A program made the position numbers and the translations under genes. DNA of 64,000 nucleotides from Nitratidesulfovibrio termitidis HI1 (GTDB lineage: Bacteria > Desulfobacterota > Desulfovibrionia > Desulfovibrionales > Desulfovibrionaceae): positions 3,162,304-3,226,303 of the forward strand of contig NZ_KI632512.1 of NCBI RefSeq assembly GCF_000504305.1. The letters run 5' to 3'. This document shows, piece by piece, positions 63,491 to 64,000 of the stretch. How positions within the stretch are numbered: position 1 is the first letter of the stretch; the number at the start of each line of letters is the position of its first letter. Under the pieces are notes generated by a model. The model searched no databases. It saw only the letters and a list, made by a program, of their open reading frames with translations, and was not told where the DNA came from.

Positions 63491-64000
63491 CCCTCAGACT
63501 GCATACACCTCTGGTAGATAGTAACCGACCTGTCTCACGACGGTCTAAACCCAGCTCACGATCTCCTTTAATAGGCGAACAACCTCACCCTTGGCCGCTG
63601 CTGCACGGCCAGGATGGAAAGAACCGACATCGAAGTAGCAAGCTGCCGGGTCGATATGTGCTCTTGCCGGCAACAACTCAATTATCCCCGAGGTAACTTT
63701 TCTGTCATTTTTGGCCCGCACCAAGCGGGAATCACAAAAGTTCGCTAGAACCGACTTTCGTCTCGTCATCCACTACTGTGCTGAATAACGTCAGGCTGAC
63801 TTATGCTCTTACACTCTTCAGTAGGTTTCCGACCCACTTGAGTCAACCTTTGTGCGCCCTTGATATCTTTTCAAGGGCGTCCCGCCCCAGGCAAACTGCC
63901 CACCTATCGATGTCCTCCGTTGGAGTTAGGATCGTAATTTCAGAAGGGTAGTGTCCCAATGGCGACTCCACCAATGCTGGCGCACCGGCTTCGACGTCTC
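63491..64000 (-). rRNA. Archaeal-type 23S rRNA domain V segment (partial in window)
   Basis: On the minus strand this reads as large-subunit rRNA from about E. coli position 2200 to about 2640, running off the window edge at its 5' side. GTGAGCTGGGTTTAGACCG (63541-63559), GCAAGAGCACATATCGACC (about 63648-63667), GAGTGTAAGAGCA and AAAAGATATC are the archaeal forms, not the bacterial ones. Similarity stops at 63491, right after domain V; the sarcin-ricin loop sequence AGTACGAGAGG is absent. Helices pair despite changed bases. At 63680-63681 positions equal to 2453 and 2452 are U and U, and at 63634 the position equal to 2499 is U. The frame seen across it (63545-63769) is not a gene. Confidence 0.9.

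Follow-up and report, generated by a model that had tools for sequence, protein, structure and literature searches.

The last bases of the stretch analysed here raise the question of how archaeal ribosomal RNA sequence came to lie in the record of a bacterial genome. The window, 64,000 bases of Nitratidesulfovibrio termitidis HI1 (G000:C1:3162304-3226303 in a single 4.26-Mb scaffold), ends in a segment that an earlier note had read as archaeal large-subunit rRNA domain V on the minus strand, set beside Desulfovibrio-like genes. Three origins had been put forward for it: transfer of an archaeal gene, a structured RNA newly derived from rRNA, or an assembly chimera. Comparison with the archaeal source, the surrounding scaffold and congeneric genomes makes it very likely that the segment is a contaminant that sequencing or gap closing wrongly attached to one end of a bacterial contig, rather than an acquired gene.

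The Rfam model LSU_rRNA_archaea (RF02540) matches the window end on the minus strand with 501.6 bits (E = 1.8e-155; gathering score 50). This is the sole match at gathering level in the whole 64 kb; two overlapping, lower-scoring matches of the same clan were dropped by the Rfam search program. When the whole genome is scored, two parts of the piece score 194.3 and 151.8 bits with the archaeal model, against 151.5 and 106.5 bits for the same two parts with the bacterial LSU model. By sequence the piece thus belongs to RF02540, scoring above the gathering score and higher with the archaeal than with the bacterial model, and the reading as archaeal domain V on the minus strand stands. The Rfam match itself extends to 63314, and alignment to the archaeal gene places the edge of the piece at 63488/63489. 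This delimits 512 bases of archaeal 23S rRNA domain V (63489..64000, minus strand; G000:C1:3225792-3226303 on the scaffold); the start given earlier, 63491, was correct to within two bases and moves to 63489. The host's own complete 23S gene lies elsewhere (G000:C1:1356910-1359825), and the piece is 68% identical to the host's 23S over 394 aligned bases. The archaeal sequence does not form a working member of RF02540: there is no complete 23S gene in an rRNA operon, just fragments of 512 and 447 bases in separate places. The archaeal SSU model gave 0 matches in the genome, a weak negative as this model matches 9 of 14 control genomes, bacteria included, yet picks up no 16S here, and the host's 16S regions read N.

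The source of the piece can be named closely. Across its length, 511 of 512 bases are identical to the 23S gene of the independently sequenced Methanomethylovorans hollandica DSM 15978 (G215; Methanosarcinaceae), which ranked top, through both of its 23S copies, among the 111 genomes searched in the family of G149, 58 of which gave a match. A best match of near-exact identity to an archaeon is what the earlier note had named as evidence against a genuine feature, and it is what was found. From a G215 contig 285,109 bases long, 6,000 bases were compared with plasmid NC_019972.1 of M. hollandica DSM 15978 and proved 100% identical. Other routes led to more distant sequences. An exact 38-base pattern scan of genome contigs returned four Methanosarcinaceae records, M. 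hollandica not among them, with 90-98.6% identity over the window piece; comparison of the window end with plasmids gave, among the matches listed, haloarchaeal and bacterial 23S sequences at 67-79%.

On its native side, the piece adjoins DNA that is the bacterium's own, as had been claimed. A GCD14/TrmI-type tRNA methyltransferase gene of 314 aa (62216..63160, plus strand; Pfam PF08704, 109.1 bits) has matches to its 3' part in all seven congeneric genomes, at 90-96% identity. It is followed on the plus strand by native intergenic DNA (63161..63482), which aligns partly or wholly to congeneric contigs, and then by the six last native bases before the join (63483..63488). The join at this place, here called site 1, is blunt: archaeal GGGTA, then bacterial CCCGCAC. 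Further into the window, at 56963-58005 on the minus strand, two adjacent ORFs resemble the transposase pair of an IS3-type element; an integrase core domain (PF00665 and PF13683) is encoded by the downstream ORF.

On its other side, the piece meets a gap. A run of exactly 100 N starts one base past the window (L012 1002-1101). Beyond this gap 1, the following 312 bases (L012 1102-1413; G000:C1:3226404-3226715) are an exact inverted copy of L012 1460-1771 and duplicate the beginning of the gene that follows (L012 1463-3445, 660 aa), the product of which reads by eye as an ABC-F-type ATPase. This fold-back copy is likely a self-priming artefact. With 100 N directly after the window and the fold-back beyond them, the archaeal piece terminates one contig, and the contig across the gap opens with a duplicate.

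The genome holds a second stretch of the same kind. At G000:C1:2427220-2427666 (L017 5221-5667, minus strand), 0.8 Mb from the window piece, 447 bases of archaeal 23S sequence abut a run of exactly 100 N (L017 5121-5220). This second piece holds one ambiguous base and is identical to the M. hollandica 23S gene at 445 of 447 positions, one of the two differences being the N. At its join, site 2, at most one base is common to both sides. A search with an 8-kb query around the rRNA operon of a Methanomethylovorans MAG (L021) found 13 places in the genome, namely the two known pieces (99% and 96%) and 11 in the host's own 23S genes (66-83%), and no archaeal piece beyond these two. No N occurs in 400,000 bases taken from 20 other places in the genome, nor in the 64,000 bases of the window, so that two archaeal pieces both at 100-N runs are not expected by chance. 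In M. hollandica, the sequence of both pieces belongs to one continuous gene within a full archaeal 16S-tRNA-23S-tRNA-5S operon (L072, carrying the other 23S copy, with the window piece at 6453-6964 and the second piece at 5377-5823). In the host scaffold, by contrast, it is present as two unconnected fragments, each ending at 100 N.

The earlier note had proposed looking for the same locus in other genomes of the genus, and no crossing congeneric contig contains an archaeal insert. At site 1, four of the seven relatives (L023, L024, L027 and L029) pass the position without the archaeal stretch, their contigs continuing into the next gene; the remaining three (L025, L026 and L028) end before crossing, apparently at contig ends. 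The gene flanking site 2 is found in six of the seven, and all six cross without archaeal sequence, with intervening stretches that vary in length. The archaeal sequence is therefore both placed at contig ends and gaps in the host and absent from 4/4 and 6/6 crossing contigs at the two sites. In L027, 35 bases separate the parts between which the host has 512 bases of archaeal sequence, the 100 N and the 312-base fold-back copy.

The relatives also indicate what occupies these positions. At site 1, in the three crossing contigs that were folded (L023, L024 and L027), the native bases at the break lead into an extended, GC-rich stem-loop. Folded as single-stranded DNA, the hairpin of L027 has an energy of -32.4 kcal/mol, and none of 200 shuffles was as stable. 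The host's native sequence ends six bases into the left arm of this terminator-like hairpin, leaving the stub at 63483..63488, and, across gap 1, picks up again in the final bases of the right arm. At site 1, the true locus probably consists of just this hairpin, set between the gene for the tRNA methyltransferase and the one that follows. At site 2, the join coincides with the point where the left arm begins in a hairpin that L042 and L043 both contain; in L042 this stretch has a folding energy of -27 kcal/mol, with 1 of 200 shuffles as stable, and the intergenic DNA of L041 and L045 is longer and different here. By eye, window 63447-63482 and L017 4230-4290 and 5040-5120 show a similar intergenic pattern, a run around CCCAATTGAAAAG..TTTG and then G-rich DNA and inverted repeats rich in GC; runs of this type were spotted at several gene ends. 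Possibly they represent a family of strong terminators in the genus that causes contig breaks.

Gaps of this kind have been described in related genomes. Hurt et al. 2012 attribute gaps in two Desulfovibrio genomes to such hairpin structures, locate the six gaps of strain ND132 between coding regions, and report sequencing products able to fold back and self-prime; by convention, the gap filler is 50 or 100 N (PMC3409199). For Desulfovibrio sp. FW1012B, their Table 4 gives 2 gaps, each of them associated with secondary structure (PMC3409199). The two 100-N runs of the host are in keeping with this picture. The gaps in these non-contiguous finished genomes and those of the host have in common the intergenic position at a GC-rich hairpin, the conventional N filler and the fold-back product (PMC3409199). 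Some contig termini were wrong in the published genomes as well (PMC3409199). The differences are the foreign rRNA at the host's gap edges, of which the part of that paper available here reports none, and the correctness of most contig termini in ND132 (PMC3409199).

A sequence of events that would produce the present arrangement can be outlined. Polymerase may have halted at the two GC-rich terminator hairpins. One contig end per gap could then have been lengthened with sequence, contaminant or chimeric, that stems from the rRNA operon of a methanogen, and at gap 1 the far contig end would have been lengthened by a self-primed fold-back product. The remainder of each gap would finally have been bridged with 100 N. 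As both pieces come from one 23S gene, the contaminant would have been material rich in rRNA genes, such as an rRNA clone or amplicon, rather than bulk DNA. Misassembly driven by overlap was considered and set aside: with a blunt join at site 1 and at most one common base at site 2, joining through common sequence is unsupported.

Several alternatives have to be set against a contaminant joined at gaps. An archaeal gene acquired by the bacterium would here mean a genuine, very recent capture of 23S fragments from a living Methanomethylovorans partner at two intergenic hairpin terminators, and an assembly that broke off just within the inserts. Methanogens and sulfate reducers live in the same habitats and co-occur; the pieces are nearly identical to a real methanogen, and the one join that each piece has is assembled sequence, all of which a recent transfer would accommodate. 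It would need, however, two separate insertions, each at a gap and each from the same gene. Native sequence does not flank either piece on both sides, one side of each being a 100-N run, and neither the fold-back duplicate across gap 1 nor the insert-free crossing contigs of the relatives fit such an event. The gene-from-archaeon option is on these grounds very improbable. A structured RNA of the bacterium's own, evolved from archaeal rRNA, draws some support from the conserved rRNA domain that the fragment spans, but identity at 511 of 512 bases leaves no trace of divergence toward a new role. Outside its own genome, the piece is matched best, among 149 family genomes of which 63 gave a match, by an ordinary 23S sequence at 136 bits and 69% identity; the piece is moreover truncated by the gap, and the crossing relatives lack it. 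The proposal of a new structured RNA retains almost no credibility.

A further possibility concerns the route of contamination: given that the pieces are artefacts, they could derive from a methanogen in the sequenced culture instead of from laboratory carry-over. This source would yield the same observations, and the co-occurrence of the two groups of organisms would provide the opportunity. Near-identity to a sequenced type strain, by comparison, slightly favours carry-over, and the search with the 8-kb rRNA-operon query gave 23S pieces only. If the pieces are artefacts, a culture methanogen is thus the less likely origin.

A contaminant joined at gaps, the chimera among the three original options, is the reading with which the directly observed evidence agrees: the near-identity, the 100-N edge, the second piece at a second 100-N run, the fold-back and the insert-free relatives. 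Some points count against it. Random carry-over from a 2.7-Mb genome would rarely give 23S sequence twice; one of the 512 bases differs from M. hollandica; three of the seven relatives do not cross site 1; the assembly was scored at 0.2% contamination; and the correctness of most ND132 contig termini in the published account weighs in the same direction (PMC3409199). With these included, the sequence comparisons still make it very probable that the window piece is no real feature of the organism and that the record needs correction. For the bacterium, the piece would be without function.

Uncorrected, the record would mislead any search for archaeal rRNA in bacterial genomes or for transferred rRNA genes. 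Flags are due at G000:C1:3225792-3226303 and 2427220-2427666 for the archaeal pieces and at 3226404-3226715 for the fold-back copy. The case also illustrates that foreign rRNA can sit hidden where N gaps begin or end, even when the assembly is scored as 99.99% complete and 0.2% contaminated.

Longer N blocks are found beside the bacterial 23S genes (L013 1-4720, L014 6751-9250, L015 5751-10750 and L016 221-5220). They measure 2,500-5,000 bases within larger stretches and are either gaps or masking by the data holder. Downstream of a bacterial 5S rRNA gene in the last of these regions, a ZMP/ZTP riboswitch (RF01750, 60.8 bits) is present at L016 6948-7032.
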